The position numbers and the translations under genes were made by a program. A stretch of 42,026 nucleotides of DNA, from positions 1 to 42,026 of the forward strand of contig NZ_JAFREL010000048.1 of NCBI RefSeq assembly GCF_017377655.1, read 5' to 3'. Of this stretch, positions 17,107 through 32,933 are shown piece after piece. Origin of the DNA: Candidatus Enterococcus ferrettii (lineage in GTDB: Bacteria > Bacillota > Bacilli > Lactobacillales > Enterococcaceae). Position 1 is the first letter of the stretch; every line of letters starts with the position of its first letter. Under the pieces are notes generated by a model. It made no database searches and was not told where the DNA came from. It was given only the letters and a program-made list of their open reading frames with translations.

Positions 17107-18993
17107 CTAAGCTACGTTAGTTGGTACTGGTACAGGCTTTTCACCATTGTTGACAAAGTATACTTGATACCAAGTTAAGAAGGTATAGATAGTCCAAATT
17201 TTGCGTCGACCATCAGCCGTTCCTTCAAAATTATCATCCAATAGCTTCAAGATTCTCTCTTGATCAAAAAATTCTTTTACGAACTCCTGCTCAAACAAAT
17301 TACGGATAATCTTGTAATATTTTTCTTCTCGTAACCAGTCTTTAATTGGTACAGGAAAGCCTAATTTTTCACGATTGTACCACTCCTCTGGCAAATGGCG
17401 GGCTGCCGCTTGACGGAAAGCATACTTCGTATTTTCTGCATTGATCAAATATTTCGTTGGTACTTGTTCTGAAACCTTCATTAATTCTTTATCCAATAAA
17501 GGGACACGTACTTCTAAGGAACTGGCCATTGATAACTTATCTGCTTTCAATAAGATATCTTTAGGCATCCATTGGTGCATATCCAAATACTGCATTTTTT
17601 TAATCTCTGACATGTCTTGGACTTGGTCATAGTGTACTTGAACAATATCTTTAACACTAGGACTTGATTGATAAGTAGGTTGTAAGTAATCTACCGCTTC
17701 TTCTTCTTCAAATACCTTAGCCTGACCTATGAAGAAGTCTTCAGCTGGTGCTAAAGAAGTATATAAGTGCAAAGCACCACGGAATGATTTCCCTTTTAGA
17801 CCGCGGCCAATTTTATAGCGCATGTCTTTAGGCAGTTTTTTTAAACCTTCAGCGACTACCTTTACCATTTTAGAATTTGTGTTCATCCCATAGGCTTGGT
17901 AACCGGCAAATAATTCATCTGCCCCTTCCCCGCTAAGCGCCACACGAACATCACGACTCGCAAGTTCAGCCAGGAAATAAAGCGGCACACAGGATGGATT
18001 TGAATCAGGCTCATCCAAATGGTATTGAATCAATGGGAAATAATCAAAAGCTTCATCTCCAGTTACAACTCGAGATGTATTATTTAAATCAATTAGCTCG
18101 GCCAATTTTTTTGCTTCCACTGATTCATTATAAGTCTTGTCACCGAATCCGATTGAATAAGAATGTTCAGGACGTAATACGGCTGTTACATAACTAGAGT
18201 CAACCCCAGAAGATAAGAAGGAACCTACTTCAACATCAGCAATTCGATGAGCTTCCACTGAAGAAATCACAGTTTTATCAATTAAATCAACTGTTTCTTC
18301 TAAAGTTAAACCAGTTTCCTTTTCATTAACATCCCAATATTGCTCAATCTTCAATTTACCATCTTTATAAATAAAGTAATGCCCTTCTTTAATACGATAC
18401 ACATTTTTGAAGAAGGTTTCATCTAATGCCGAGTATTGAAAAGTCATATAAGGCTTCAAAGCTTCCTTATTCAACTCTTTTACAAAATTTGGATGCTTCA
18501 AAAAGCTCTTGATTTCTGAACCATACATAAAGGTTCCGTTCATTTGAGTATAATACAATGGCTTAATTCCAAAATGATCCCGAGCGCCAAATAATTCTTG
18601 TTTTTCTGTATCCCAAATAACAAACGCAAACATTCCACGGATTTTTTGCAGCAGATCAACACCATATTCTTCATAACCATGAAGCAATACTTCAGTATCG
18701 GCATGGGTTCTAAAAATGTGTCCTTTAGCAATTAAATCCTCACGAATGGATTGGTAGTTATAAATTTCACCATTAAAAGTAATAATCTTTGTTTCATCTT
18801 CGTTATAGATCGGTTGAGAACCGCCTTCCAAGTCAATGATACTTAAGCGACGAAAGCCTAAAGCAACACCTTCATCAATAAATTGACCAGAGCTGTTTGG
18901 TCCACGGTGAACGATGGTATCCATCATTTCCTTAATGACTTGTTCTTTTTGTGTTGTATTTGAACGATCAACGAATCCTACAATTCCGCACAC
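17107..18993 (-). CDS. asnB: Asparagine synthase, glutamine-hydrolysing
   Basis: 628 aa from a GTG at 18993 (AGAGGG upstream), which places Cys2 directly after the start (MCGIVGF), the nucleophile exposed after Met removal. The N-terminal glutaminase domain (about 1-210) has IVHRGPNSSG, ARDHFGIKPLYY and FNGEIYNY. The synthetase domain (about 230-600) has the ATP pyrophosphatase loop SSGVDSSYV and ALSGEGADELFAGY. It makes asparagine from aspartate, glutamine and ATP through an aspartyl-AMP intermediate. The length fits the Bacillus/Lactobacillales AsnB group. It is monocistronic. I looked for a T-box leader upstream and saw none. Confidence 0.95.
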   Translation of the reverse strand: MCGIVGFVDRSNTTQKEQVIKEMMDTIVHRGPNSSGQFIDEGVALGFRRLSIIDLEGGSQPIYNEDETKIITFNGEIYNYQSIREDLIAKGHIFRTHADTEVLLHGYEEYGVDLLQKIRGMFAFVIWDTEKQELFGARDHFGIKPLYYTQMNGTFMYGSEIKSFLKHPNFVKELNKEALKPYMTFQYSALDETFFKNVYRIKEGHYFIYKDGKLKIEQYWDVNEKETGLTLEETVDLIDKTVISSVEAHRIADVEVGSFLSSGVDSSYVTAVLRPEHSYSIGFGDKTYNESVEAKKLAELIDLNNTSRVVTGDEAFDYFPLIQYHLDEPDSNPSCVPLYFLAELASRDVRVALSGEGADELFAGYQAYGMNTNSKMVKVVAEGLKKLPKDMRYKIGRGLKGKSFRGALHLYTSLAPAEDFFIGQAKVFEEEEAVDYLQPTYQSSPSVKDIVQVHYDQVQDMSEIKKMQYLDMHQWMPKDILLKADKLSMASSLEVRVPLLDKELMKVSEQVPTKYLINAENTKYAFRQAAARHLPEEWYNREKLGFPVPIKDWLREEKYYKIIRNLFEQEFVKEFFDQERILKLLDDNFEGTADGRRKIWTIYTFLTWYQVYFVNNGEKPVPVPTNVA

Positions 18994-19046
18994 ACTGTCT
19001 ACCCTCTTTCAAATAGCCTCAGATACACACTGGTATCAACTTTCAA

Positions 19047-19075
19047 AGTATATCATAGGATATCTCGACTTTCAC
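19047..19075 (-). promoter_or_regulatory. Candidate asnB promoter
   Basis: On the minus strand, GTGAAA (19075-19070), 17 bases, then TATACT (19052-19047) with TGA just before it, giving an extended -10. It is about 55 bases before the asnB GTG. Confidence 0.45.
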
Positions 19076-19135
19076 GAATTGCGCAGATTTTCTATACAAA
19101 TTGTCGAGAATTCTTAATTTTTTACAAAGGGATAG

Positions 19136-19448
19136 CGAAGAAAACGTTCGCTAATTCTTTTAAACTTATTAATTCAGCTAGCTTCTATCTATCAGGTAAA
19201 ATCTTTAGAAGAAGTAGTTGAATTTCCTATGTTTAATTCCTTTTTAACCCCGAATACTATCTTTTTAGAACGTGATGCATTGGAACATTTCTGTTTTTCA
19301 CCCGCAACTTAACAAAACTCCAGAGGTAAGCTTTTCATTATATTCTAAAAAATCCTTAACAGATCTCGCTTCCAGATTGGTACACCGTAAAAAAATTCTA
19401 GAGAAGGAATTAATAATACAGAACCAAGTCTGTCGATGTCACGAATAA
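19136..19448 (+). pseudogene. Unidentified, frameshifted gene remnant
   Basis: Two overlapping open stretches on the plus strand read as one interrupted protein. The first (19136-19312) contains SLEEVVEFPMFNSFLTP and FLERDALEHFCFSP. The second (19275-19448), in another frame, continues with PEVSFSLYSKKSLTDLASRL and HRKKILEKEL. A single shift near 19300 would join them. There is no ribosome site or convincing start. I do not recognise the family. Otherwise 18994-19547 holds only the asnB promoter and the hairpin at 19464. Confidence 0.35.
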
Positions 19449-19463
19449 TCACGACCACGTAAA

Positions 19464-19526
19464 AATACCCGAACATTTATTAAAAGATCACTTGATGTGA
19501 GTGAATCTTTTCATAGTTCGGGTATT
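19464..19526 (-). terminator. Long hairpin terminator of the two-gene coiled-coil operon
   Basis: Outer arms AATACCCGAAC and GTTCGGGTATT pair perfectly. Inner arms (AAAAGAT..ACT with AGT..ATCTTTT) extend the stem to nearly 30 bases. On the minus strand T follows the stem. The outer sequence resembles that of the hairpin at 30999-31068. Confidence 0.75.
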
Positions 19527-19547
19527 CTGTATAGTAGCTTTTGAAGT

Positions 19548-20579
19548 CTACTTTAGAGCTAGTGACACTAAGAACGGGTACGCTCCAAAAAATTCAATCA
19601 AGGATTTGTTGCTATTAACCGTGTTTATAGTTAAACGGGTAGCATTTTGAGCTTCATTTTGAATCAACTCGACTCTGTGATCATTTTCCAATTTAATTAA
19701 ATAGTGATTTTCTTCGATTTTTTTGAAGTCATACTTGGGATTGTTCATAGTTGTAATGAAAATGGCATCCAATGTATCTATACTTACCAAGTGTGGCAAA
19801 TCAAAGGATAAATTTAATGGGCGGCTATTATCTAATAGATTGTCACCCAAAGCAAAACCTAAGCTCTTCATATGTGTAAAAACACTGTTCATTTCATAGC
19901 TAAGTAATGAGTTCTGACCACTGGTATATATGTGGTGCTGGTAGCAATCAGCCAATAAAGTCAAAACAGCATCGTTTAAGACTGCCACTCTCATTGACTC
20001 CGGATAAACTGTCATCAAATGAATTTTTTCTGTCCGAATTTTCCCTTCAGAAGTAGGCATCATCAGATTAAAAATAATCTCGTTCTCGTTCATTAAACGA
20101 TAAGAAAGCGTGAAGTGTTTAGTTTCCCAGGTTGAAAAATCATTACTGGAAAGCTGTAAATCATGTGTTTCCAAGGGTTTTAATAATTCAAAGGTAAAAT
20201 ATTCCAGCAGAGCACTTTTAGCAATTGCTGAAACTTCATAGTCTTTACTTAAAAATACTTCCCGAAAATCATTCAATAAAGTCGCAAAATCTGACTCCAT
20301 TAATTTCTTTCGGAATTTCAAATCGGCTAGCTCTTTCTCGGCATCTTCAATCAGGTTTAACAAATCTTGATAGTTATTTTCTCGATTGTCATAATACGAA
20401 AGAGAGGATCGACTGAGAGGCTTTTCGTGAACGGGTAATTCTTCAGCAGACTCTGATTCAAAATCAGCTTCATCGGTATGCAGCACTTCTTTTTCTCGAA
20501 TCATTAATTCTTCATTTTCTTCAGGCGCAACTAGAGTATCGTATAATTCGCTAACTCGCGTTTTCTTTTCATCAGTCAT
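19548..20579 (-). CDS. Hypothetical protein, acidic N-terminus with central coiled coil
   Basis: 343 aa, family not recognised. Residues 1-60 are acidic and low-complexity (EENEELMIREKEVLHTDEAD). Residues about 65-115 are a predicted coiled coil (YQDLLNLIEDAEKELADLKFRKK). The last 200 residues look like a folded alpha/beta domain (FTLSYRLMNENEIIFNLMM, HLVSIDTLDAIFITTMNN). No signal peptide or membrane segment is seen, so it is probably cytoplasmic. Its ATG abuts the stop of the preceding coiled-coil gene (TAAATG), so the two are made together and may interact. The pair ends in a strong terminator. Confidence 0.7.
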   Translation of the reverse strand: MTDEKKTRVSELYDTLVAPEENEELMIREKEVLHTDEADFESESAEELPVHEKPLSRSSLSYYDNRENNYQDLLNLIEDAEKELADLKFRKKLMESDFATLLNDFREVFLSKDYEVSAIAKSALLEYFTFELLKPLETHDLQLSSNDFSTWETKHFTLSYRLMNENEIIFNLMMPTSEGKIRTEKIHLMTVYPESMRVAVLNDAVLTLLADCYQHHIYTSGQNSLLSYEMNSVFTHMKSLGFALGDNLLDNSRPLNLSFDLPHLVSIDTLDAIFITTMNNPKYDFKKIEENHYLIKLENDHRVELIQNEAQNATRLTINTVNSNKSLIEFFGAYPFLVSLALK

Positions 20580-21416
20580 TTACTTGTCCTCCTTGTTTAA
20601 AAACACTTGGACAAATTGCTGCATTTGCTGTTCCATCTCTTCTAGTGAACCAAAGCGCTTATTAATAATCCGCAATTCTTTCAAGGCAATTGCTTGTTCC
20701 AACTCAAGTGCTTTTATTCTTTGAGCTAATTCAATCTTTTGAGATTCACGGGAGACTTCGCTGCTGACAAAAGGAAGCCATTTACGATGCTCTTCCTGAA
20801 GAGCCAAAATTTTGCGATTTAACTGATCGATTTCATCATCGATTTTTTTGCGATTCAACAACCCCTTTGAATCTTCAAGTTCTGCTTTTTTTTGTTCCTG
20901 CTCCTGAATTTGCAGCTCCAACTCTTCAATTTCCGAACGAGCAGCAATTATTCTTGCATCGAAATCATTTTCCTGAGACCTCAAAGCTTCAATTTCTTCG
21001 TGATAAGTACCCTGTTCAGTTTTTTTCCATTGTTTTTTTACTTCAGGTAAAATGATCACCGATGGTTGCGTAGCATCAAGCTGAATAACCGCTCGGTCTC
21101 GATAATAACTTCCCAGCTGATAATCCAATAAGACTGGTGTAGCTTGGTCTCGTAATTGCATGAAAGGATATTTCCGTAAAAACTCCCGATCCAATTTACT
21201 GGTGAAATAATTATCCATTTCATGATTTGCATTGCTGGATTGCTGAATTGACACAGGCAGCTCATTCCAATAAATTTGGTAAACAGCTCCCATATCTTCT
21301 CTCTCCATGGCTTCTTCCAAGCGTTGCAATTGCGACATTAAATCGCCTAGTACAACAGAAGCTGATTCCTTTACTGAATCAAAGGACGTTTCAGACTGCT
21401 TTTCTGGCGTCTCCAT
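20580..21416 (-). CDS. Hypothetical coiled-coil protein (SbcC/SMC-like coil)
   Basis: 278 aa. The first 130 residues are mixed, with an acidic start and a short folded stretch (FMQLRDQATPVLLDYQLGSYYRD). Residues about 135-275 are almost continuous heptad repeats (IIAARSEIEELELQIQEQEQ and ELEDSKGLLNRKKIDDEIDQL), broken once near WLPFVSSE, so it may form a hairpin coiled coil. There is no ATPase motif, so similarity to exonuclease SbcC is only of the coil type. It is the first gene of a two-gene unit. The start at 21416 has AAGGAGG upstream. Confidence 0.7.
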   Translation of the reverse strand: METPEKQSETSFDSVKESASVVLGDLMSQLQRLEEAMEREDMGAVYQIYWNELPVSIQQSSNANHEMDNYFTSKLDREFLRKYPFMQLRDQATPVLLDYQLGSYYRDRAVIQLDATQPSVIILPEVKKQWKKTEQGTYHEEIEALRSQENDFDARIIAARSEIEELELQIQEQEQKKAELEDSKGLLNRKKIDDEIDQLNRKILALQEEHRKWLPFVSSEVSRESQKIELAQRIKALELEQAIALKELRIINKRFGSLEEMEQQMQQFVQVFLNKEDK

Positions 21417-21506
21417 TTGATAGCCTCCTTGTGCATGTTTATAATTTTATAGTACCATTTTTTTATACGAAAAAGTGTTTTTATGACTCGAAAATTGGTC
21501 AAAAAG

Positions 21507-21530
21507 AGCGTTGACCTAATGATCAACGCT
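21507..21530 (-). terminator. Terminator of the DUF1002 gene
   Basis: AGCGTTGA pairs with TCAACGCT across an 8-base loop; on the minus strand CTTTTTG follows. It lies about 55 bases past the stop at 21584. Confidence 0.8.
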
Positions 21531-21583
21531 TATTTATTCATCCTTGGTATTTCATTGTCGAAGATTCAAACAATTTTTTAACA

Positions 21584-22630
21584 TTAGTTCCCAATATTCC
21601 CAAAGAAATCTTTAATCGACTGCCATAAATTAGCAAAGAATCCTTGGTTTTCTTCTAGTGTCCCTTTAATAGAATCACCAAATTTTCCTAACTGATCTGA
21701 AAGACTATTTACTGTATCTTTGAAATCACCACTGATTTTATCTAGTTGCTCAATTGATTGTTTGTCCAACACACCATCAGTAGTTTGATATTGCTCAGCA
21801 AGAGAAACCAGCTTGTTAATGTCTTCTTGACTAATATATTGAGATAAATTGTTCTTTTCTAAGGCTTGATTGACAATATTTTGGACGTCTTCTTTGGTAG
21901 CTAATTCACCCTGTTTTTCCTTTAGTTCAGCTAAATCCTTTTTGATATCCACTAACGTTTGGTTTAGTTGCGCTTTATAAGCTTCATCGGCTTTTTCTTT
22001 GTCACTGGCTGAAAGATCTTGTTGTTGCTGATTCTCATTCGCACTATTCACAATTGATTGAGAAACTTCATTGGTGGTATCTAATTCGGTTTGAGCCAAT
22101 TGAGCTCGAGCGGGATCCACTTGTTCACCATTCGATTCAAATGCTTTATAAACACCAGTCAAAGCACTTTCACCGGTTACTTTTACCACACTAGCTACTT
22201 TTACGGTTGCATCAGATATACCAGCAGTAACTAACGGATTTTTGTATTGATCAGCAGTAATTTGAGTAATATTTTCCGGAGTCAAAATTTTTACATTGAT
22301 CCCTTTACCTTGGTCTTCTCTATTCACAACAACTGAGCTAAGCATGACGCTGTCATCTCCGCTGCCATATCCTAAATATTTTACTAGATCAGCACCTGTA
22401 GCCTGTTCAGTTTTTACACTATCCTGATTAATACCTAGTACGTTCATCGTTTCGTTTAACTGCTGTTGATTTAAACCAGCACCCGCAACAAATGTTGGTT
22501 TTCCCCAACGTTCATTGATAACAGCTTCTGAACTAACGTTAGTTGCTTGAGCAGTAGTACTAGCATGAAAGGTACCTACTCCTAATGACAGCGTTAAGCT
22601 AGCTAAAATAATATATTTTTGTAGTTTCAT
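21584..22630 (-). CDS. Secreted DUF1002-family protein
   Basis: 348 aa. A signal peptide is clear (MKLQKYIILASLTLSLGVGT, cleavage likely after ATTAQA near residue 29). The DUF1002 core follows (about 40-180): GAGLNQQQLNETMNVLGI, VKYLGYGSGDDSVMLSSVVV and VTGESALTGVYKAFES. Residues about 195-320 are glutamine- and lysine-rich helices, probably coiled coil, and the end (NLWQSIKDFFGNIGN) is amphipathic. It is exported and lacks an LPXTG or lipobox, so it is probably secreted or loosely wall-bound. DUF1002 proteins are common in Firmicutes and have no assigned activity. It is a single-gene unit. Confidence 0.88.
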   Translation of the reverse strand: MKLQKYIILASLTLSLGVGTFHASTTAQATNVSSEAVINERWGKPTFVAGAGLNQQQLNETMNVLGINQDSVKTEQATGADLVKYLGYGSGDDSVMLSSVVVNREDQGKGINVKILTPENITQITADQYKNPLVTAGISDATVKVASVVKVTGESALTGVYKAFESNGEQVDPARAQLAQTELDTTNEVSQSIVNSANENQQQQDLSASDKEKADEAYKAQLNQTLVDIKKDLAELKEKQGELATKEDVQNIVNQALEKNNLSQYISQEDINKLVSLAEQYQTTDGVLDKQSIEQLDKISGDFKDTVNSLSDQLGKFGDSIKGTLEENQGFFANLWQSIKDFFGNIGN

Positions 22631-23565: not shown

Positions 23566-23630
23566 GGATGTCACCTCTGGAGCTAGTTTACCATGAAATA
23601 AAAGAAAAAACTTTTTCCAAGCACAAAAAT

Positions 23631-23658
23631 AAGACTAGAACAGTTACGTCCTAGTCTT
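23631..23658 (-). terminator. Terminator of the blaI-blaR1-PBP operon
   Basis: AAGACTAG and CTAGTCTT form an 8-base stem with a 12-base loop. On the minus strand ATTTTTG follows. It is the first good terminator downstream of blaI. Confidence 0.8.
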
Positions 23659-23662
23659 AGTA

Positions 23663-23845
23663 CTACAACTCTTTTGTTGTGAAATGAATTTTGCCTTCGT
23701 CATCTCTTGATAAGATCGTTTGCTCTTTCAAGTAAGGAAAAGTTAATTCAGGAAGCTTTGGATCTTCCAGCATTTTTTCATATCCTTCAAAGATATCACG
23801 CATATACTGCTTGTAAGCCTTCTTCTTTCTTTGTCGCTTATTCAA
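23663..23845 (-). CDS. Small hypothetical protein at the end of the PBP operon
   Basis: 60 aa from a TTG at 23845; AAGGA lies 12 bases upstream, a little far. The sequence is very basic at the start (NKRQRKKKAYKQYMRDIF) and acidic later (LEDPKLPELTFPYLKEQ). There is no membrane segment. It lies 57 bases past the PBP stop with no terminator between, and a terminator follows it, so it is probably the last gene of the blaI-blaR1-PBP transcript. I know of no function. Confidence 0.55.
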   Translation of the reverse strand: MNKRQRKKKAYKQYMRDIFEGYEKMLEDPKLPELTFPYLKEQTILSRDDEGKIHFTTKEL

Positions 23846-23902
23846 GTTACTGCACCATCCTTCTGAAATATCTTACCAATCTTTATTGGTCTGGACAAGT
23901 GC

Positions 23903-25927
23903 TTATTGATAAGTTGACTGTAGATAAGTCAATAATTCTTTAGAAAGCTCAGTAGCTGATTGACCATCAGATCGATTTTCTAAAAATTCCAGAAGCGAAT
24001 AAGCTTGATTTTGAGCATCAAAAGCATACAAAAAACTATTTTCTTGACCTTTCTCATCTTGCTTTTCCTTGATTTCGGCGGTTCCTGTTTTTGCTGCTAA
24101 TGGAATATTTAAGCTCTGTAGACTATTAGCTGTACCATTTGGATCGCTAACAACAGCTTGCAAATCCTGATTGATTGTTTCAACTGTTCCTCCTGAAACA
24201 ACGTCAGGTTTTGTTTTCGTTTCGGTATCTGCTAATAACTTAGGATAAACTAGTGTCCCCTTATTAGGAAATACAGAATAAGTAGCAATTTGTTGAATAG
24301 GATTTAAAAGCAGCTGTCCTTGTCCATAGCCAGTATCAGCCAACAATACCTCTGACCCAAAAGAATCGTCATTAGAAATTTGAGCGGGATCCATTGCAAT
24401 TGGCAAATCTAACTTCTCACCAAAGATAAATTTGTTTAATCCATCTCTAAAAGTCTTTTTACCCATTTGCAAAGTTTCTTGTGCCATGTAAATATTGTCT
24501 GAGTAGACTAAAGCTGTTCGCAGGTTAACAGGCGAAACATCACTTACTCGAGTAACTTGATAACCACCCCAAGAACTATCTTTTTGCCATTTTAATCCAT
24601 TAATTGCCAATTCTTCATTTGGATCAAGTGTACCAGAATCTAAACCGATCGCTGCAGTGACAGTCTTGAATGTAGAACCCGGAGCATAACCAGTAGCAAA
24701 ACGACTCATAAATGGTAAATTTTTATCGTTATTGTACGCATCATAATCTGCCTGACTGATTCCATTGGTCATTTTATTTGGATCAAAGCTTGGTGAGCTG
24801 ACAACTGCCAGCAGGTCGCCTGTTTTAGGAGCGGTTGCTACACTCGAGCCGGGTTGTCCTTGTAAAGAATCATAAGCAAGTTGCTGTGCTTTCAGGTCAA
24901 TGGTTAATTTAACGTTCTCACCATCCGTCTTTTTAACTTCTTGCAGAACTTTCTTTTGTGAATCAGCTTTATCCACAATGGCTAACACTCCACCATCTTG
25001 TCCTCTTAGCTGCTTATCTAAAGCACGTTCTAATCCCGTTCTACCGATTAAACTTTCAGCAGCAAGTGTATCATTTTTTTCTATATCTTCAGCAGTAACT
25101 TTTCCCACATAGCCAATTAGCTGTGCAGCAGCCTCTCCTAAAGGATAAGTTCTACCTGTTGCCTGGTGAACTTCAGCTCCTTCTGGTACATTTTCTGGTA
25201 TTTCGGATACGGTTTTTAGAGGAACAAAGAAGTCGTCTTGGACCCAACCTTGTTCTAAAGCACTGTTAACTGCATCAACCGTACTGCCAATTGACTCAGC
25301 GATTGCTGCAATTTTCTGAGAGCGTTCATTATCACTGCCTAATTGATTTGGAATTACACCGATTTGATAGATCGTACCATTAACGGCTAGACCTTGATCA
25401 TTGCGATCAAGTATTTCACCGCGTGTAGCTGAAGTAGCTTGGTAGCTGATTTTATCTGTAGCAGACATTTCTGGAAAAATCAAATCGGGCTTCCAAATAA
25501 TTTTTTGATTTCCATCTGCCAGTGTCCCTTCGTACTTTTGATTATCTAGTTTGCCAAGACCAGTTGTTAAAGTCAATTTGTAGCTGAAGTTGTAGCCATC
25601 ATTGTTTTTTTTCACTTGAATATCACTGGCTTTAATATTGGAAGCGTTGATGCCGGTAAAAATGTTTTGGTATTTTTCTGCCACGCTATCTTTAGTAAAC
25701 GCGTTATCTTTTATTGAAGATTCAGTCAAATAGTTAGGTATTTCATTGTATTTACCTTTTGAAATCGCAGAGATAAATTTCTTAACCGTCTGCTCTCCCT
25801 CATTTCTCAATTGATTAGCGTGATAAACGGTATATCCGCCAAATCCTGCAATAGTTATCAGGACGATTGCACCTATAATAATTAAAGGCAGTTTGGTACT
25901 TCTTTTGCTTTTTTGGCTTCTTTGCAT
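23903..25927 (-). CDS. pbp5: Low-affinity class B penicillin-binding protein, PBP5-like (subclass B3, PBP2a type)
   Basis: 674 aa against 678 in Enterococcus faecium PBP5, and similar along its whole length. Order: a short cytosolic basic start, one membrane anchor (about 13-35), an NTF2-like MecA_N domain (about 40-155), a linker/dimer domain (about 165-330) and the transpeptidase domain. Active-site motifs are STFK (418-421, acylated Ser418), SDN (476-478) and KTGT (613-616). It cross-links peptidoglycan, and members of this group react slowly with beta-lactams. At the places corresponding to E. faecium M485 and E629, which change in highly ampicillin-resistant PBP5, this protein has Met481 (SDNIYM) and Glu625 (KEKQDE), as in susceptible types. 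Unlike the psr-ftsW-pbp5 context of E. faecium, here it follows blaR1 by 32 bases with no promoter of its own. The symbol is by similarity. Confidence 0.93.
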   Translation of the reverse strand: MQRSQKSKRSTKLPLIIIGAIVLITIAGFGGYTVYHANQLRNEGEQTVKKFISAISKGKYNEIPNYLTESSIKDNAFTKDSVAEKYQNIFTGINASNIKASDIQVKKNNDGYNFSYKLTLTTGLGKLDNQKYEGTLADGNQKIIWKPDLIFPEMSATDKISYQATSATRGEILDRNDQGLAVNGTIYQIGVIPNQLGSDNERSQKIAAIAESIGSTVDAVNSALEQGWVQDDFFVPLKTVSEIPENVPEGAEVHQATGRTYPLGEAAAQLIGYVGKVTAEDIEKNDTLAAESLIGRTGLERALDKQLRGQDGGVLAIVDKADSQKKVLQEVKKTDGENVKLTIDLKAQQLAYDSLQGQPGSSVATAPKTGDLLAVVSSPSFDPNKMTNGISQADYDAYNNDKNLPFMSRFATGYAPGSTFKTVTAAIGLDSGTLDPNEELAINGLKWQKDSSWGGYQVTRVSDVSPVNLRTALVYSDNIYMAQETLQMGKKTFRDGLNKFIFGEKLDLPIAMDPAQISNDDSFGSEVLLADTGYGQGQLLLNPIQQIATYSVFPNKGTLVYPKLLADTETKTKPDVVSGGTVETINQDLQAVVSDPNGTANSLQSLNIPLAAKTGTAEIKEKQDEKGQENSFLYAFDAQNQAYSLLEFLENRSDGQSATELSKELLTYLQSTYQ

Positions 25928-25959
25928 AGACTGTTTGTCCCTTCGTTTAATAATAATAG

Positions 25960-27726
25960 TTAGTAAAGATCTCTTTCACGCAAAATACGCAAGGTTTCCT
26001 TAGCAGCCTCTTGACCAGAAGTATCCTCACCTTGCAAATGACAGGCAAAATAATAGGTTTGATCTTTTGCCTCGATAAACCCGATAAACCAGCCACGACT
26101 TTGTTGATTTTGCCTTCTACCTGTTCCAGTTTTACCATAAAGAGTATAATTCGGACTAGATTCCAGCTTAATTGCGTCCTTTATAAATTGAATTTCTGCT
26201 GTTGAAAAGTTCAATTCATTATTTAAAAGCTTTTTTAGTAGTTGAACCTGTTCAGTAGCGGATATCTTTAAAGAAGATTCCAACCAATAATCGTTTATCG
26301 GTCCCAACAGATTTGAATTACCATAATTGATTGCTGAAAATTCTTTAGCTAATGAAGCTTTACCTAGACGATTATCTAGCAGCTGGAAATACCAATTAGT
26401 CGAATTAGTTAAAGCTTCCTGCAGCCCTTGATCTTTGTTCCAAGCGGCAAAAGGATAAGCTGTCCCGTCCCAGGTTAATTGATTCTGATTTGGTTGAATT
26501 ATGTCGTATTTCAATCCAAACAAACCACTCCATAATTTGTAGGTACTATCTGGAGAAAAGCGTTGATAAGCAGCTTTTTCATTATAGATAGAATATTTTT
26601 CCGCTGTTTCATCATATAAAACCAGGGCATTCTGGCTATTCTTAAAAAAGGATGTATCTGCCAATACTTCAATAGAGGCCTTTTCCTCCAGTAATGAGGC
26701 ATTCTGACTACCTTCACTTTGAGGAATCGCTATAAATGCTGCTCCTGTTATAAGAAGTATCATTAAAATTTGAATGTACCAGTATTTTGTTTTTGCTCGA
26801 TAATCAGCGATAATATGGATTCGCTCTATCAACAATTTTTTGTTGTCAGAAAAAGCGATTAGTTGACTATTATTTTTTTGAACGAAACTGTTCAATAATG
26901 CTTGTCCATAACTAATGATTTCAGTTTCTGATAAACGAGACATGACAAGCTGGTCACAAGCTATTTCACGATCCTTTGCAGCTTTTCCTGCCATCCAATA
27001 AAGTAGTGGATTATACCAAAAAAATATCGTAGACCAGATAAATAAGCATTGCTGATAAAAATCTTTATTTTTGTGGTGTGCCAGTTCATGCATCAGGATG
27101 AGGAATAGATGCTCCTCCGACTTTTTACTACAATACCCATCCGGTAATAAAATCACTGGATGAAACAATCCGCTGGTAGCAGGTGTTAAAATTCTTTTAG
27201 AAGAGATAATACGAACTCTTTTATGGTATTTTAATGCTGCTTGGGCCTTTTCTAAAGAGTGTTGAATCGTACTATTCTGCAGCAGTTGACCTTCTTTTAT
27301 CCAGCTATGTAAGTTGTAAAAAGAAAAAAGAAAAAGAAATCCTTTAATACCTACGCCAATCACCCAAACAAGCACAAAAAGATACATATAATCACTAAAT
27401 GCCGAACTTGCTGACAGGGAATAATCATTCATCCATTCATTTTTCAATGGAGAAAAAGAATCGAGTATCCCTGCATTAGCTTTCTCCATCCAGCTGTTTT
27501 GAAAATAGCTGATAGTGCCTACATTATAATGCAGATATGCTTTAAAATTTGCTAAAGGCTGATAAGGAATAAAAAAGAGAATACTCAAAAAGGGGAAATA
27601 CCAAAAAAAACCTCTCAACCGCGGATTCAACTGCTTTCCAATTACATTTCGCACTAATGCGATCAATAACAAAAATAGACTCATAGATACATTATTAAAC
27701 AAGAATCGTTCAATTAACTGAGTCAT
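25960..27726 (-). CDS. blaR1: BlaR1/MecR1-type beta-lactam sensor-transducer
   Basis: 588 aa, the normal BlaR1 length. The N-terminal half has four membrane helices and an M56 metalloprotease domain with HELAHH (His213, Glu214, His217) and a downstream CDQL zinc-ligand region. After the last helix (about 316-335) comes an extracellular penicillin-sensor domain of the class D beta-lactamase type: FSPDSTYK (Ser394/Lys397), STN (442-444) and KTGT (532-535). In staphylococci, acylation of this serine activates the protease domain, leading to loss of the BlaI/MecI repressor. All motifs needed for this are intact. The gene overlaps blaI by 17 bases and precedes the PBP gene, so sensor, repressor and target form one operon. 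Confidence 0.94.
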   Translation of the reverse strand: MTQLIERFLFNNVSMSLFLLLIALVRNVIGKQLNPRLRGFFWYFPFLSILFFIPYQPLANFKAYLHYNVGTISYFQNSWMEKANAGILDSFSPLKNEWMNDYSLSASSAFSDYMYLFVLVWVIGVGIKGFLFLFSFYNLHSWIKEGQLLQNSTIQHSLEKAQAALKYHKRVRIISSKRILTPATSGLFHPVILLPDGYCSKKSEEHLFLILMHELAHHKNKDFYQQCLFIWSTIFFWYNPLLYWMAGKAAKDREIACDQLVMSRLSETEIISYGQALLNSFVQKNNSQLIAFSDNKKLLIERIHIIADYRAKTKYWYIQILMILLITGAAFIAIPQSEGSQNASLLEEKASIEVLADTSFFKNSQNALVLYDETAEKYSIYNEKAAYQRFSPDSTYKLWSGLFGLKYDIIQPNQNQLTWDGTAYPFAAWNKDQGLQEALTNSTNWYFQLLDNRLGKASLAKEFSAINYGNSNLLGPINDYWLESSLKISATEQVQLLKKLLNNELNFSTAEIQFIKDAIKLESSPNYTLYGKTGTGRRQNQQSRGWFIGFIEAKDQTYYFACHLQGEDTSGQEAAKETLRILRERDLY

Positions 27727-28102
27727 TATGCTTTTTCCTCTCCGTTAATAACGTTTGCAACTTTTCCAGTTCTCTTTGGTCAACTACTTCTTCCTTAACA
27801 AAATTCATAACTAGCTCACTAACTTTACCATCAAAAAATTTTTGTATAAACTTTTTACTCTCTTGCCTTACAAAATAATCTCTTGGAATCAGCGCATTGT
27901 AAATATACATACGACCGGATTTTACATGCGTAATCACTTCTTTCTGCTCTAAGCGCGTCAACAGTGTTCGGATTGTATTAGGGTTCCAACCTTGTGACTG
28001 CTCCAAGAGCTGATTAATTTCCTTTGAACTGATAGTTCCATGATCCCAAACAACTTCCATCACCTTTAGTTCAGATTCAGTGATATTAATCTCCATGTTC
28101 AT
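27710..28102 (-). CDS. blaI: BlaI/MecI-family repressor
   Basis: 130 aa. The N-terminal winged helix is typical (ITESELKVMEVVWDHGTISS, then WNPNTIRTLLTRLEQKEVI, about residues 7-57), followed by KSGRMYIYNALIPRDYF. The C-terminal dimer domain contains ELVMNFVKEE, with an Asn100-Phe101 bond exactly where MecI and BlaI are cut on induction (N101-F102). AAGGAG lies four bases before the ATG. A perfect dyad with TACA/TGTA cores covers the promoter -10, so the protein should repress its own operon, including blaR1 and the PBP gene. Confidence 0.94.
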   Translation of the reverse strand: MNMEINITESELKVMEVVWDHGTISSKEINQLLEQSQGWNPNTIRTLLTRLEQKEVITHVKSGRMYIYNALIPRDYFVRQESKKFIQKFFDGKVSELVMNFVKEEVVDQRELEKLQTLLTERKKHNDSVN

Positions 28103-28116
28103 TTTACTCCTTAAAT

Positions 28117-28140
28117 TTTAAACTACAAGTGTAGTTTAAA
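28117..28140. promoter_or_regulatory. BlaI operator (perfect 24-base dyad)
   Basis: TTTAAACTACA and TGTAGTTTAAA are exact reverse complements with a 2-base centre. The TACA/TGTA half-sites match the core of known bla and mec operators. It covers the -10 box and likely transcription start of blaI. Confidence 0.85.
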
Positions 28141-28161
28141 CGAGTTCAGTCATCCTGTCAA
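28133..28161 (-). promoter_or_regulatory. Promoter of the blaI-blaR1-PBP operon
   Basis: On the minus strand, TTGACA (28161-28156, consensus), a 17-base spacer and TAAACT (28138-28133). The -10 lies inside the operator dyad, so bound BlaI would block RNA polymerase. A near-consensus promoter under tight repression fits strong induction. Confidence 0.8.
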
Positions 28162-28171
28162 AATAATTAAG

Positions 28172-28220
28172 AAAATAGATACCTGTCTTCAGCAAAAGCG
28201 AAAAAACAGATATCTATTTT
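28172..28220 (-). terminator. Terminator of the ABC exporter operon
   Basis: AAATAGATA-CTGT and ACAG-TATCTATTT pair with one mismatch around an A/T-rich loop. It lies just past the stop at 28226 and 11 bases upstream of the blaI promoter, insulating the two units. Confidence 0.75.
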
Positions 28221-28225
28221 TTTAA

Positions 28226-28855
28226 CTATACACTATTTCTTTGATATGTAGTCAGCAGTACGCTGCTAACTATCAAAAACAGTCCTACTAAAAATAGCAA
28301 AATTTTAGATTCCCAGTCATTTTCAGCTAATGTAAACAAATAAAATGGACCTAAATATTTTTGATTACTAAACATATTCATGACATAGTACATAACAGCA
28401 ATCATAGTACTAGGAATAATATGATGAAAAAAAGTGTAGCTTATACTTAGTAAACCACCTAAAAAAAATACGGTTGCAAATTCAGCGAAAAAAAATACTT
28501 GGAAGTTAAACTGAGAGTGATTAAATTTAAGTGTACCAAGAAATAGTGCCAATGCAATTAAACCCATACATAGGATTTGTCCTAAACGTATTAACAGCAA
28601 AATCATATAAGAGGTTTGTTTAGCTCGAACCACTGCTACTATTTCCTTTTGAGTATCCGGTAAATAAAGGGGAATGAAGAGGAATATCCCTATAATTGTA
28701 AATACTCGTTCTACTATGAATGCAGTTTGTGCACTTTCTAAATATTCCGCCCCGAATAAAAAAGGAAAAAGGAGTAGAAAAATTATTGTTACCAAGACAA
28801 AAGGCATATAGTGAAAGCGAAAAAAATAAAGGTTCAGCTTATTGATCTTTTCCAA
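28226..28855 (-). CDS. Integral membrane protein of an ABC-2-type exporter
   Basis: 209 aa from a TTG at 28855, with AAGGAGGGG six bases upstream. It has about six hydrophobic segments (for example YMPFVLVTIIFLLLFPFLF, VFTIIGIFLFIPLYL and ILLFLVGLFLIVSSVLL) and no large soluble domain. It overlaps the preceding permease gene by 17 bases, so it is almost certainly the second membrane subunit or an accessory subunit of the same transporter. The substrate is unknown. Confidence 0.75.
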   Translation of the reverse strand: MEKINKLNLYFFRFHYMPFVLVTIIFLLLFPFLFGAEYLESAQTAFIVERVFTIIGIFLFIPLYLPDTQKEIVAVVRAKQTSYMILLLIRLGQILCMGLIALALFLGTLKFNHSQFNFQVFFFAEFATVFFLGGLLSISYTFFHHIIPSTMIAVMYYVMNMFSNQKYLGPFYLFTLAENDWESKILLFLVGLFLIVSSVLLTTYQRNSV

Positions 28856-30032
28856 ATAAAGCCCCTCCTTTTCGCCTGTAATCTGCTAATAGTACTGTCA
28901 GAAGGCAGCAAATAATCCCCACCACGCTCCAAAAAATTCGATTAGCAATAAGCTCAGGCAGCATTTGATTAAACAACTCCCTTTGACCGACCTCATTGAA
29001 ACGAGGAATTAAGTTCCAACCCGCACTGCCGGTGATTGATCCGCCATTCATAAATAAGTTTGCTAACCAAAATAGTAACTGAGCTAAGATGGCAACAATC
29101 CCACCTGCTAATTCAGTTAATAAGAAACCAATACCAACAACCGCTAAAATAGTGGGTATCAGCCAACCTAAAACGTATTGATAAAACAATAAAAGATTTC
29201 CTTGCGCGTGTAAATTCTTAGCCATTGTTAAAGATTGCATACCAGGCATCAAAACGAAGAGTAGCATTGGTACTACTAACAAAAGTATGCAGCTAAAGTA
29301 GCGGCTTATAATCAGTTTAGCTGTCGAAGTTTGCTTAGTAAAAATCACCTGCTGAGCTTGAGCACGTTTATCTCGCACTATCACAGTGGCTGCCAGAAAG
29401 ACTGGAACTAGTGCTAAAATAATACCAAAATAATCACACACCATTCGGGCATATGCACCACTTACTTGATCTTCCTCAATGATTTTTTGAAAGTCTTTAT
29501 GAGCTTGTTGGTAAGTCTTTGGTTCTACAGCTTTCGATTTGTAGCGTTTTTCTTCGAAATTGGAACCTTTTCCTATTATTTTTTCGGTTTTGTGCATATT
29601 TTGCTGAAACTCCTTGTAGCTATAACCTTTCTTTACTGGAAAACTAAAGACCGTTTGACTATTCGAAGTTATTGACTCTTGATACTTTTTGGTTAATTCA
29701 TCAATAGACATTCCGCTAGCCGAAGTTAAGATTTTTTCAATTTCCTTTTGCTGATTGTTCGACAAGCGTACAGATTTTAGAAAACCTAACGGGTAAGTTG
29801 CATAGCTATTGTTAATATACTCTGGAAAAAGCTGTTGATAGGTTGACTCTTGAATTTTCTTTGGATCTTTAGTGGGTTGTAAACCGTACTCCTCTTCGTT
29901 AGGCTTTGGCTCTTTGATCATTGTCAAGTCACCGCCAATTTGCGAAAAGGCAAATAAGCCAATTAGTAGAATTACTACCCAAAAAGTCATGCTTTTTAAC
30001 GTTATTTTCATTTCTTTGATTACCAAGCTCAT
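28839..30032 (-). CDS. ABC-2-type transporter permease
   Basis: 397 aa. One membrane helix at the N-terminus (SMTFWVVILLIGLFAFSQIGG, about 14-34) is followed by a large outside domain (about 35-195) rich in Lys and Gln, then five C-terminal helices (about 200-390). This is the layout of ABC-2/NatB-like exporter permeases with a big extracytoplasmic loop between helices 1 and 2. Its ATG overlaps the ATPase gene stop (ATGA), so translation is coupled. A nearby two-component system suggests a response to an envelope-active compound, but loop and substrate cannot be matched to a known transporter by eye. Confidence 0.82.
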   Translation of the reverse strand: MSLVIKEMKITLKSMTFWVVILLIGLFAFSQIGGDLTMIKEPKPNEEEYGLQPTKDPKKIQESTYQQLFPEYINNSYATYPLGFLKSVRLSNNQQKEIEKILTSASGMSIDELTKKYQESITSNSQTVFSFPVKKGYSYKEFQQNMHKTEKIIGKGSNFEEKRYKSKAVEPKTYQQAHKDFQKIIEEDQVSGAYARMVCDYFGIILALVPVFLAATVIVRDKRAQAQQVIFTKQTSTAKLIISRYFSCILLLVVPMLLFVLMPGMQSLTMAKNLHAQGNLLLFYQYVLGWLIPTILAVVGIGFLLTELAGGIVAILAQLLFWLANLFMNGGSITGSAGWNLIPRFNEVGQRELFNQMLPELIANRIFWSVVGIICCLLTVLLADYRRKGGALFGKDQ

Positions 30033-30916
30033 GAGTGATCACCTACCTGTTCAGATAGACAATACAGATAAGCATCCTCCAGAGTAGGCTGAACCTGACG
30101 AACTAATGGGTGTTCCATGATTAAAGAGCCTATTTTACCAATGAAACGAATGCGGGTATTTGCACCATCAGGATGAAGGCTGATAACTTCCACTTGTTTT
30201 TTCATGGATGCTAATTCAGTCCGCGGTAGATCTATCTCGTAGATATTGCCTTCCGCTTCATCTAACAATTCATTGACTTTACCAGCGAAGATAATCCGGC
30301 CTTCATCTAGGATAGCCAATTGCTCCGCCACTGCTTCGATATCCCCAGCGATGTGGGTAGATAATAAAACAATTTTATTTTCACTGATTTCACTTAGCAA
30401 ATTCCGAAAACGTAATCGTTCTTCCGGGTCTAAGCCAGCGGTTGGTTCATCAACAATTAAAATTTGGGGGTCATTTAACAAAGCTTGAGCAATTCCTAAA
30501 CGCCGCCTCATTCCCCCTGACATCGCCTTGACTTTGTTTTTTTGATAGGCTGACAAATTTACCTGCTCAAGCAAATTTAAAATTTGTTTTTTTCGTTCTC
30601 CTTTTTTGATATCTGACAATACTGCTAAATAATCCATCGCATCATAGACAGTCATGTTGCCATACATTGAAAAGTCCTGTGGCAAGTAACCAACGATCCC
30701 TCGAATTTCTTTGCGTCGTTCGACAGAGATATCAGCCATGCGTACAATCCCTGCTTTAACCGGCAATAAAGTGACCAAGGTTTTCATTAAAGTCGATTTC
30801 CCAGCACCATTTCGTCCTAATAATCCATACATCCCGGTTTCTATTTCTAAGTTAATGTCATGTAAAACTTGTTTCTTGCCATAAAATTGATTCAAATTCT
30901 TAATAATAATTTCCAT
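30029..30916 (-). CDS. ABC transporter ATP-binding protein
   Basis: 295 aa from the ATG at 30916 with GGAGGAG six bases upstream; an ATG six codons earlier overlaps that ribosome site. Walker A is GLLGRNGAGKSTLMKTL (about 35-51), the Q-loop GYLPQDFSMYGNMTV, signature MSGGMRRRLGIAQAL (about 130-144), Walker B ILIVDEPTAGLDPEER and the H-loop LLSTHIAGDIEAVAEQL. The C-terminal 80 residues are the extension seen in drug and antimicrobial-peptide exporters. It energises the two membrane proteins encoded immediately downstream. The unit lies after the sensor kinase gene, separated by a long hairpin. Confidence 0.9.
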   Translation of the reverse strand: MEIIIKNLNQFYGKKQVLHDINLEIETGMYGLLGRNGAGKSTLMKTLVTLLPVKAGIVRMADISVERRKEIRGIVGYLPQDFSMYGNMTVYDAMDYLAVLSDIKKGERKKQILNLLEQVNLSAYQKNKVKAMSGGMRRRLGIAQALLNDPQILIVDEPTAGLDPEERLRFRNLLSEISENKIVLLSTHIAGDIEAVAEQLAILDEGRIIFAGKVNELLDEAEGNIYEIDLPRTELASMKKQVEVISLHPDGANTRIRFIGKIGSLIMEHPLVRQVQPTLEDAYLYCLSEQVGDHS

Positions 30917-30998
30917 CTGATCTCCTCCATTCATTAACAGTTTACTAAGGAAATATCTATATTTTCTCTACATAATATGAGGAATTGGATCAAAATAG

Positions 30999-31110: not shown

Positions 31111-32271
31111 TTACCTCATATTCAACTGAAAAACAGCAGAGACGATGGCGCCGTTTTCTGCGCCATTAGCCAATTTAAGAACGCCGCCGTGTTTTTCTGT
31201 TAAACTGCTGGCAATAGTTAAACCTAAGCCAAAATGATTTTCTTTACTCTTGGAAAAATATGGGAGCGTGGCACTGGTTAATTCTCCTTTAGAAAAACCG
31301 TTCCCATCATCTTTTACAAATAGGAAAATATAAGGATTTTGGTACTCAAGTGTAACTTCAATACATTGCTTTTTATATCTCATCGCATTTGTTAGAAGAT
31401 TTTCGAAAACCTCCATAATTAGATACAGATCATAAGCTGCTAGTACAGAAAAATTGCCGCTAAGACGAAGAGCAGAGTCTTCTAAACCAAATGTTTTTAA
31501 TAAGTCTCTGATGTTTTCCACTAAATCAGATAAAGAATTTCTGCTCATATGTACTTCAAAATCATCAATTTTTTGGATCGATTTCATAGTTGCCGAAAAT
31601 GCGTCGAGGCGCTGAATATTCGACTGAATTTTACCTAAGGATTTATATAACAAATCATCAGCCATTTGCCCGGTCGGATAATAGGTCTCGATTAATTCTA
31701 CATTATTTTGAATTACGGTCAATGGGGTACGCAAATCATGAGAGAAAGCTGCATTGATTTTCTTTTGTTCTATATGAAGTTGATGAATTTGCTCCTGACT
31801 ATCCTTCAACTGGATGCGCATTTCGTTGATCTGTTCTGTCAGCGACTGGAATTCATCTTTATTGATAGCATAAATCGGATGTCCGAAATCTCCTGACTTT
31901 ATTTGTTCAACACCATCAGAAATAGCAATTATTGGTTGCATTACCTGATTCTCTACGAAAAAAGCAGATGCTAGTCTACAATACAATACTAAATAACCAA
32001 CTAAACTACCCCAACGAACAAATTCAAACCGTTGAATCACTATATTTTGCTTTAGAACAGTAAGAGGTGGCTGCCAGGTTAAATATTCCCAAGTACTTAG
32101 CCGTTGCTGATCCATAATTATTAAACGTTCCCAACTAACAATTAAGCTAACTGTGAATACCCATGCAAGCAATACTAAAATAAGCCCAATTGTCATTATC
32201 ATAAAGAGACTACCCTTTAAGCCAAATGCTCCTATTTTTAATTTGTCTAGCTGATCTTCTAACCAATCCAT
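31111..32271 (-). CDS. Sensor histidine kinase
   Basis: 386 aa from the ATG at 32271, inside the end of the response-regulator gene with GGGG just upstream. Two membrane helices (about 15-45 and 88-110) flank a short outside loop of roughly 45 residues. A HAMP-like linker (PIIAISDGVEQIKSGDFG) follows, then the phospho-acceptor FSHDLRTPLTVIQNN, the N box FENLLTNAMRY, G1 DDGNGF and G2 HFGLGLTIA. The small outside domain is unlike the intramembrane-sensing BceS type but is compatible with direct peptide or envelope-stress sensing. It pairs with the regulator at 32259-32933. Confidence 0.9.
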   Translation of the reverse strand: MDWLEDQLDKLKIGAFGLKGSLFMIMTIGLILVLLAWVFTVSLIVSWERLIIMDQQRLSTWEYLTWQPPLTVLKQNIVIQRFEFVRWGSLVGYLVLYCRLASAFFVENQVMQPIIAISDGVEQIKSGDFGHPIYAINKDEFQSLTEQINEMRIQLKDSQEQIHQLHIEQKKINAAFSHDLRTPLTVIQNNVELIETYYPTGQMADDLLYKSLGKIQSNIQRLDAFSATMKSIQKIDDFEVHMSRNSLSDLVENIRDLLKTFGLEDSALRLSGNFSVLAAYDLYLIMEVFENLLTNAMRYKKQCIEVTLEYQNPYIFLFVKDDGNGFSKGELTSATLPYFSKSKENHFGLGLTIASSLTEKHGGVLKLANGAENGAIVSAVFQLNMR

Positions 32272-32933
32272 TTGTACCCCAGCCCCCAAACTGTATGGAT
32301 GCACTCTTGTGTTGTCAATTTTTTTACCTTTGTACGAATTCGACGAATGTGCTCAGTGATGATTGATGAATCTCCATCCTTGTCAAAGCCCCATATTTTT
32401 TCATAGATTTGTTCCCGATCAAATATAACACCCGGATGCTTAGCTAGTAATTCTACAATTGTGAATTCAGTTTTTGTTAGAGGAACTTGTTGTTCTTTGG
32501 CAAATAACTGTTTTTGGTCGTACTCAACAACCAATTCTCCAAAGAAGCTCACCGATTGTTGCAGCTTTTTTCGCTCTTCACGTCGCAAATGAGCAGCTAC
32601 TCGCATACCTAATTCTTTTAGGCTAAAGGGTTTTAGCAAATAATCGTCTCCTCCAGCCATCAAACCGGCTAAACGGCTCGACTCGTCAATCTTAGCTGAA
32701 AGAAAGATAATTGGGCAGCCCACGAAGGAACGGATTTTTCTACAAAAAGTAATGCCATCTATATCCGGCATCGAAACATCCAACAAAATTAAGTCTGGTT
32801 CTGCTGCCAATAATCTTTCAGCCTGATGAATATTATCTGCTGTGTACACTAAATAATCTGATAGTTCAAAAAAATCTTTTAAAGTATCTAAAAGTTCCGT
32901 TTCATCATCAACAATCAGCAAGCTCTTTGTCAT
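32259..32933 (-). CDS. OmpR/PhoB-family response regulator
   Basis: 224 aa. The receiver domain (about 1-118) shows the acidic pocket LLIVDDETELL, phosphorylation site LILLDVSMPDIDG (Asp about 53), switch IIFLSAK and LLKPFSLKEL. The winged-helix DNA-binding domain (about 130-224) ends in HIRRIRTKVKKLT and TVWGLGYKWIG. It overlaps the kinase gene by 13 bases. It starts 27 bases after the LUD gene, so all three may share a transcript. The ABC genes on the same strand are the likely targets. Confidence 0.92.
   Translation of the reverse strand: MTKSLLIVDDETELLDTLKDFFELSDYLVYTADNIHQAERLLAAEPDLILLDVSMPDIDGITFCRKIRSFVGCPIIFLSAKIDESSRLAGLMAGGDDYLLKPFSLKELGMRVAAHLRREERKKLQQSVSFFGELVVEYDQKQLFAKEQQVPLTKTEFTIVELLAKHPGVIFDREQIYEKIWGFDKDGDSSIITEHIRRIRTKVKKLTTQECIHTVWGLGYKWIG

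Follow-up and report, generated by a model that had tools for sequence, protein, structure and literature searches.

The intrinsic tolerance of enterococci to beta-lactams is classically exemplified by PBP5, which, to our knowledge, is not thought of as drug-inducible. One locus of Candidatus Enterococcus ferrettii raises the question of whether the production of this penicillin-binding protein (PBP) might be switched on by the drug itself. On contig NZ_JAFREL010000048.1 (assembly GCF_017377655.1), whose analysed stretch of 42,026 nucleotides is called the window here, a single leftward unit running from position 28161 to approximately 23630 encodes a BlaI repressor, a BlaR1 sensor protease, a PBP4(5)/PBP5-type transpeptidase and a protein of 60 residues. 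The make-up of this unit suggests that PBP5 in this relative of E. pallens is probably made on demand, by a switch like that of methicillin-resistant Staphylococcus aureus, and the probability of a beta-lactam-inducible pbp5 operon is put here at roughly 0.8. Unexpectedly, the switch appears to have taken over the pbp5 gene of an old chromosomal locus, and a sister form is found on plasmids.

The first gene of the unit, blaI (27710..28102, minus strand), encodes a BlaI/MecI-family repressor of 130 residues (Penicillinase_R, 8e-36), which is homologous over its length to repressors of solved structure (residues 2-123 against 1sd4 and 5-121 against MecI). It overlaps by 17 nucleotides with blaR1 (25960..27726, minus strand), the product of which is a 588-residue M56 metalloprotease with a penicillin-sensor domain, as judged from Pfam (Peptidase_M56, 5.9e-43; Transpeptidase, 4.2e-37) and NCBIfam (blaR1_generic, 459.7 bits against a cut-off of 400). 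A gap of 32 nucleotides separates blaR1 from pbp5 (23903..25927, minus strand), which encodes a class B PBP4(5)/PBP5-type transpeptidase of 674 residues with MecA_N, PBP_dimer and Transpeptidase domains in Pfam and a PBP4(5) match of 1043.5 bits in NCBIfam (cut-off 700). The best relatives among solved structures in the PDB are PBP5 chains for the PBP, BlaR1 for BlaR1, and BlaI and MecI chains for BlaI; we take the first to be from E. faecium and the others from S. aureus. No other PBP5 is encoded in the genome. A first-pass annotation of the window had proposed leftward blaI-blaR1-pbp genes with intact functional motifs, and the gene calls and both family databases bear out these genes and their coordinates. 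All of the motifs are present in the translations, namely HELAHH, STYK, STN and KTGT (as KTGTG) in BlaR1 and STFK, SDN and KTGT in the PBP. BlaR1 therefore has the HExxH within its M56 domain, and the SxxK, SxN and KTG within its C-terminal sensor, that define a sensor-transducer. The fourth gene (23663..23845, minus strand), which lies 3' of pbp5 and has a TTG start, codes for the conserved 60-residue protein; it gave no match in a Pfam search and is found also at 15 pbp5 loci that have no bla genes.

Upstream of blaI, a -35 box TTGACA (28156..28161, minus strand) and a -10 box TAAACT (28133..28138, minus strand), separated by a 17-nt spacer, agree with the consensus at 10 of 12 positions. 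The palindrome AAACTACACTTGTAGTTT covers the -10 box, so that promoter and palindrome together span 28120-28161. Pattern scans place the predicted BlaI/MecI-type operator, AAACTACA-CT-TGTAGTTT, at 28120..28137. It has the TACA-N2-TGTA core at the regulated promoter, and departs from the mec/bla consensus given in the available text of PMC5341023 once when read on the plus strand and twice on the minus strand. The operator pattern has one match in the window at up to two mismatches (0.03 expected), and the perfect palindrome occurs once in the 5,396,889-base genome, where the next-best site has two mismatches. Moreover, the arrangement T[TA]GACA-17-TAAACTACANNTGTAGTT precedes blaI in all ten enterococcal blaI-blaR1-pbp operons compared, with -35 box, spacer, -10 box and operator in register. 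The core palindrome is absent from 39 bla-free pbp5 loci totalling 674,900 bases (the 41 such loci described below, minus the partial L055 and L056). A wider BlaI regulon was also considered; at up to three mismatches, operator sites in the genome are rarer than those of a control pattern (35 against 70 per strand), and the scan thus gives no sign of one.

Both ends of the unit are marked by hairpins. Between the upstream genes for an ABC transporter and the operon promoter lies a possible terminator (28172..28220, minus strand, with limits derived from the fold); the region 28160-28230 folds at -28.7 kcal/mol (z -8.8), and none of 200 shuffles did as well. At the other end, after the gene for the 60-residue protein, the terminator scan found a terminator-like hairpin at 23630..23659 (minus strand; z -3.8, 0 of 200 shuffles). 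The span of 23631-28161 originally assigned to the operon thus coincides with the unit, from the -35 box to this hairpin. The operator, the fourth gene and the location of the pbp gene at the same locus as in related species go beyond that first description.

From family knowledge and the motifs above, with the acylation and cleavage steps modelled on BlaR1 as described in the available text of PMC9834060, the following mechanism can be proposed. A BlaI dimer bound to the palindrome over the -10 box would repress the single promoter of blaI-blaR1-pbp5-orf60 (orf60 being the gene for the 60-residue protein). Extracellular beta-lactam would acylate the sensor domain of BlaR1, the membrane metalloprotease of which would then cut BlaI at Asn-Phe, as in S. 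aureus. The promoter would open, and PBP5 would be made together with fresh sensor and repressor. Because repressor and sensor would be made along with PBP5, the response should be self-limiting once the drug is gone; the co-directional layout with blaI first likewise leads one to expect negative feedback on the same transcript. With no second PBP5 in the genome, any beta-lactam tolerance carried by the PBP5 of the window would depend on the switch.

Conservation of the parts is consistent with this mechanism. According to PMC9834060, cleavage of S. aureus BlaI falls between Asn101 and Phe102, and the alignment shows Asn-Phe kept at this site in all five BlaI proteins compared. The motifs HELxH, SP[DV]STYK, NSTNWYF and YGKTGTG are intact in all 19 BlaR1 proteins of the enterococcal clade. 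When the window is set beside E. pallens, blaR1 has diverged the most of all the genes examined, at 60% identity (52% in the membrane and protease half, 69% in the sensor), against 75% for blaI, 91% for pbp5 and 79-91% for the others. Its pN and pS values are 0.24 and 0.72, given here in place of dN/dS because synonymous sites are saturated. The degree of divergence indicates that the chromosomal form is old, and a pN far below pS that it is under purifying selection. A second BlaI-M56 pair is present in the genome of the window (L006; G000:C126, approximately 90505-92170); its M56 protein, at 434 residues, is too short for a transpeptidase-type sensor domain, and none was apparent by eye.

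The first-pass annotation had suggested a search for synteny in other genomes, and the blaI-blaR1-pbp order indeed recurs in enterococcal genomes and on plasmids, the occurrence of which was sampled in part. A PBP scan of genome contigs gave 45 loci, four of them with blaI-blaR1 before the PBP gene: E. pallens (L012), Enterococcus sp. 669A (L013), E. raffinosus DSM 5633 (L028) and E. malodoratus (L047). The pair was not seen at the other 41 loci, of which L029 (766 nt) and L056 (0 nt) are short on upstream DNA. Among plasmid records, 6 of the 55 with a PBP match and 7 of the 1914 with a BlaR1 match were examined. The operon is carried by E. raffinosus pHG52 (79,977 bp, typed mobilizable), with IS6-family transposases on both sides, and by an E. 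avium Inc18 plasmid (87,704 bp, typed mobilizable), with IS6 and IS1182 transposases nearby. It is found also on two E. raffinosus megaplasmids, typed non-mobilizable, and on an 83-kb contig of a further genome (G007); E. raffinosus strain HG-5 has it on both pHG51 and pHG52. All seven operons of this mobile type, to which those of E. raffinosus DSM 5633 and E. malodoratus also belong, have an extra palindrome located 35-37 nt ahead of the PBP start codon, which the chromosomal type of the window, E. pallens and 669A lacks (0 of 3). A single PBP5 is encoded in each carrier of the chromosomal type (G000, G011, G013), two are encoded in each carrier of the mobile type (G007, G010, G016), and five other genomes of the genus group have one. 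A BlaR1 of this kind was found in 6 of 105 genomes of the family (E up to 1e-20), all six among the 20 genus-group genomes listed, and, in a sample of the order, in 1 of 395 (E up to 1e-30), which is that of the window itself.

The two-operator operon thus appears to move on plasmids, some of them mobilizable, among E. raffinosus, E. avium and probably E. malodoratus. A mobile-type BlaR1 (38%) is present on a 189-kb contig named E. faecium by its source (P0016), so that the operon may have reached that species. In the record of E. raffinosus DSM 5633 the blaI frame appears broken, either truly or through an assembly error (L028:5802-6180; 80 residues, against 124 in five other mobile copies, which are intact). 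Older work reportedly describes penicillin-resistant E. raffinosus with an altered PBP, which may be the mobile PBP. The PBP query matched at least 31 Enterococcus and at least 6 Vagococcus plasmid records in all; on two E. faecalis and Vagococcus plasmids (L066, L067), PBP4(5)-like genes with 48-49% identity to that of the window lie between IS6/IS1216 elements, and BlaI and BlaR1 were not found within the annotated stretch. Carriage by phages was set aside: 17 phage records match BlaR1, and identity is at most 31.7% among the best 10 of the 17.

Several observations weigh against an inducible pbp5 operon. In NCBIfam, BlaI scores best against the model of the copper repressor CopY/TcrY, at 98.2 bits and so below the cut-off of 121.95, and it stays below the cut-offs of the named BlaI/MecI exceptions too. 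Promoter-like matches in the region are at chance level (41, against 35.2 in shuffles, sd 6.4), as are terminator-like matches (9 against 7.1, sd 2.5), and the terminator scan missed the upstream hairpin; the weight therefore rests on the position and conservation of these elements. Just upstream of pbp5 there is a weak promoter match, GTGAAA-18-TATTAT (9/12), at 25979-25950. Finally, three clinical isolates of E. pallens were susceptible to penicillin and ampicillin (PMC5343133). Induced PBP5 would therefore give no penicillin resistance there, and resistance is not to be inferred from the operon.

The last point bears on the purpose of the switch. It is conceivable that the switch works and serves housekeeping or stress functions, tuning PBP5 to beta-lactams of the gut or environment or to cell-wall signals. 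The susceptibility of published carriers fits this reading, as does the age of the chromosomal form under apparent purifying selection, and a genus-wide survey places E. pallens among the species in which resistance genes were not found (PMC12094018, in the text available). However, the BlaR1 sensor keeps its acylation motifs, with 47% identity to a Priestia protein and 35-37% to S. aureus BlaR1 and MecR1, and the related plasmid form with IS6-family transposases nearby fits resistance. A role apart from drug resistance is accordingly regarded as unlikely, though it is the strongest of the competing explanations. E. pallens, like other enterococci, is called intrinsically cephalosporin-resistant (PMC5343133), and the effect of an inducible PBP5 might be better sought in the response to cephalosporins.

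The weak match at 25979-25950 raises a different possibility, that blaI-blaR1 mainly regulates itself and that pbp5 is constitutive, being read mostly from a separate promoter located within blaR1 or 3' of it. The second operator of the mobile operons, close before pbp, also suggests that a promoter is possible at this position. On the other hand, only 32 nt lie between blaR1 and pbp5, matches of such quality are at chance level, and this one had no counterpart by eye in the 669A sequence. The second site of the mobile operons is itself an operator, so the mobile pbp would share the same repressor. In addition, the gap upstream of pbp5 in bla-free relatives resembles the gap next to the guanylate-kinase-like gene of the window and scores lower against the blaR1-pbp5 gap, although the latter is so short. 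There may be a second promoter close upstream of pbp5, but fully constitutive expression is considered improbable, slightly more so than a role outside resistance.

A single drug-responsive promoter for the whole unit is therefore preferred, and the surroundings of the unit indicate how it may have come about. The flanks of pbp5 in the window are those of pbp5 in the avium group, and 18 loci share the gene block. Its upstream side comprises opu-type transporter, disulfide-reductase-like, mmcB-like, one further, GNAT (without a match in L024) and guanylate-kinase-like genes, and its downstream side the 60-residue protein gene, DUF1002, two uncharacterised genes and asnB; the labels opu, mmcB and asnB are those that we presume to apply. 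In the window the downstream flank common to relatives (DUF1002, the two uncharacterised and the asnB-like genes) lies at 17107..22630 on the minus strand, and the guanylate-kinase-like gene at 33738..34283 on the plus strand. At 15 of the 18 loci, all without bla genes, this divergent gene is followed by pbp5 with no queried gene between them. In the other three (the window, E. pallens and 669A), a gene for an LUD-domain protein (32961..33602 in the window, minus strand) and blaI-blaR1 have come between. The added segment of the window also holds a two-component system of histidine kinase and response regulator (31111..32933, minus strand) and an ABC transporter of an ATPase and two membrane proteins (28226..30934, minus strand). 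E. pallens retains an 80-residue piece of the response regulator (L012:5404-5643), the gene for which is whole in the window; this remnant suggests that the two-component and ABC part was probably lost there. In 669A there are further genes between the gene for the 60-residue protein and a DUF915 gene.

The border of the added segment can be narrowed down further. For 13 of the 15 bla-free loci (L015 and L024 left out), the DNA separating the guanylate-kinase-like gene from pbp5 was compared with the gaps of the window. At 10 of the 13 its resemblance to the gap between the guanylate-kinase-like and LUD genes exceeded all 200 shuffles, and at the remaining three it was reached by 1 of 200; the resemblance includes the upstream side of the guanylate-kinase-like gene itself. 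Such a pattern would be expected if the added segment had been inserted between that stretch and pbp5. The base composition of blaI-blaR1 is not atypical, at 35% G+C against 31-40% in other genes. Together, these data indicate that the pbp5 of the window is not foreign and that blaI-blaR1 was added at the avium-group pbp5 locus; that is, the pair would have come to lie upstream of an existing chromosomal pbp5 in the E. pallens lineage.

Phylogenetic trees are compatible with the same order of events. The PBP tree was built from 52 of 53 translated rows (the partial L055 was left out, and neither L056 nor the G007 copy was in the set). In it, the proteins of the window, E. pallens and 669A fall together with that of E. 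florum (99/95), and these join the native PBP5s of the avium group (94/83, not starred). The mobile PBPs form a separate clade with a Tetragenococcus protein (100/99). The pbp5 of E. ratti is in two pieces in different frames (L050:5714-7742), and its first piece only was used. If the nine bla-linked PBPs from enterococci are constrained to a single clade, the tree is worse by 33 log units (p-AU 0.009, a somewhat favourable value, as the test was run after the tree had been inspected). By contrast, in a BlaR1 tree of 49 rows (33 of 107 homologues, hand-picked to span the match list, with the window and 15 loci), the 19 enterococcal-type rows form one clade (100/100). These rows are 10 Enterococcus genome or plasmid loci, for which the gene context was seen, three proteins named Enterococcus by their source and six others, and they split into a chromosomal type of 6 rows and a mobile type of 13. 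One clade of BlaR1 with PBPs that do not form one clade suggests that a single BlaI-BlaR1 family serves two PBP5 lineages, and that the regulators and a PBP probably came together on more than one occasion.

Wholesale acquisition of blaI-blaR1-pbp5 by the E. pallens lineage, with replacement of its native pbp5, has in its favour that mobile operons of this composition exist in the same genus and that, in one of nine stretches of PBP5 (residues 526-600), the window protein resembles the mobile E. malodoratus PBP5 (77%) no less than the native ones (73-78%). In the other eight stretches the native E. malodoratus protein is the closer, which also speaks against a mosaic PBP5; with the grouping of the window protein among avium-group native PBP5s, the rejection of a single clade and flanks that, down to the gene for the 60-residue protein, are those of relatives, such an acquisition is disfavoured and judged very improbable. 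The trees are also compatible with a coupling that happened once, long ago, and was followed by losses of blaI-blaR1; one insertion is simpler, because E. florum, which shows no bla genes and groups with the E. pallens clade, would need a loss of its own.

On balance, enterococci would seem to have a mec system of their own, somewhat favoured here over other accounts, in which one BlaI-BlaR1 family was joined at least twice to different PBP5 lineages: once by insertion at the only pbp5 of the E. pallens lineage, on the chromosome, and once in the two-operator operon of plasmids. Because related species have this locus either with the switch or without it, they offer a natural comparison for the building of mec-type control. 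If PBP5 is inducible, the results of susceptibility tests would depend on prior exposure, and a putatively sensor-controlled PBP gene is already on enterococcal plasmids, two of them typed mobilizable. Automatic annotation by NCBI already names the single genes. In the open-access literature searched, as far as its texts were available, no description of BlaR1/BlaI control of a PBP in enterococci was found. The available text of PMC9866002 states that, for E. faecalis and E. faecium, plasmids carrying pbp5 were as yet undescribed; a later paper reports plasmid pbp5fm in E. hirae, and the term BlaR is absent from its available text (PMC12277050).

Compared with known systems, the operon combines familiar parts in a new setting. 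The E. faecium units psr-pbp5 and ftsW-psr-pbp5 encode the same PBP family, and the level of PBP5 there depends on psr (PMC11077988), whereas the pbp5 of the window is preceded by blaI-blaR1 with no adjoining psr or ftsW. The first-pass annotation had set the operon against this psr-ftsW arrangement; its mec-like logic holds, but the comparison was not the apt one, as pbp5 follows the divergent guanylate-kinase-like gene at 15 avium-group loci. Plasmid pbp5 units of E. hirae and E. faecium between IS1216 copies show PBP5 likewise mobilised by IS6-family elements (PMC12277050); one such unit examined has an LCP-family gene and no BlaR1 or BlaI within the fetched stretch, while the plasmid form described above has blaI-blaR1. 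A further PBP beside BlaI and BlaR1 outside staphylococci is found on the Niallia taxi megaplasmid pMEGANia (L068), with ACTACA-N2-TGTAGT palindromes and a PBP of 49% identity; its order is pbp-blaI-blaR1, with two palindromes before pbp, and its PBP and BlaR1 are from other branches.

The staphylococcal blaZ-blaR1-blaI and Bacillaceae bla operons share the sensor and repressor families and the sensor motifs, and control of blaZ by blaI-blaR1 is already known from Enterococcus (PMC13118434). The target in the window is a PBP, with no beta-lactamase gene in the operon, and its BlaR1, which shares about 29-31% identity with those of S. aureus, belongs to an enterococcal type with its own clade. 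On Priestia megaterium pPmC-129-1 (L071), blaR1-blaI face two PBP genes and a class A beta-lactamase gene. Closest in logic are staphylococcal mecI-mecR1-mecA and Macrococcus mecB and mecD, which have the same BlaI-family repressor, M56 sensor protease, MecA_N-type PBP and one operator type. In S. aureus, the ACTACA-N2-TGTAGT core of the operator of the window recurs between mecA and mecR1. The mec-like regulation initially proposed around a PBP5-type protein is thus upheld by the promoter-operator, but the mec layout is not. In S. aureus pRM27 mecA is divergent from mecR1-mecI, as mecD is from its regulators (PMC5341023), whereas the genes of the window are co-directional from one promoter, with blaI first. 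The operon therefore lacks the divergent PBP gene and mecR1-mecI that define a mec gene complex, and its PBP scores 390.6 bits against a cut-off of 750 for the PBP2a family. In place of a cassette, the chromosomal enterococcal form occupies the pbp5 locus of its relatives.

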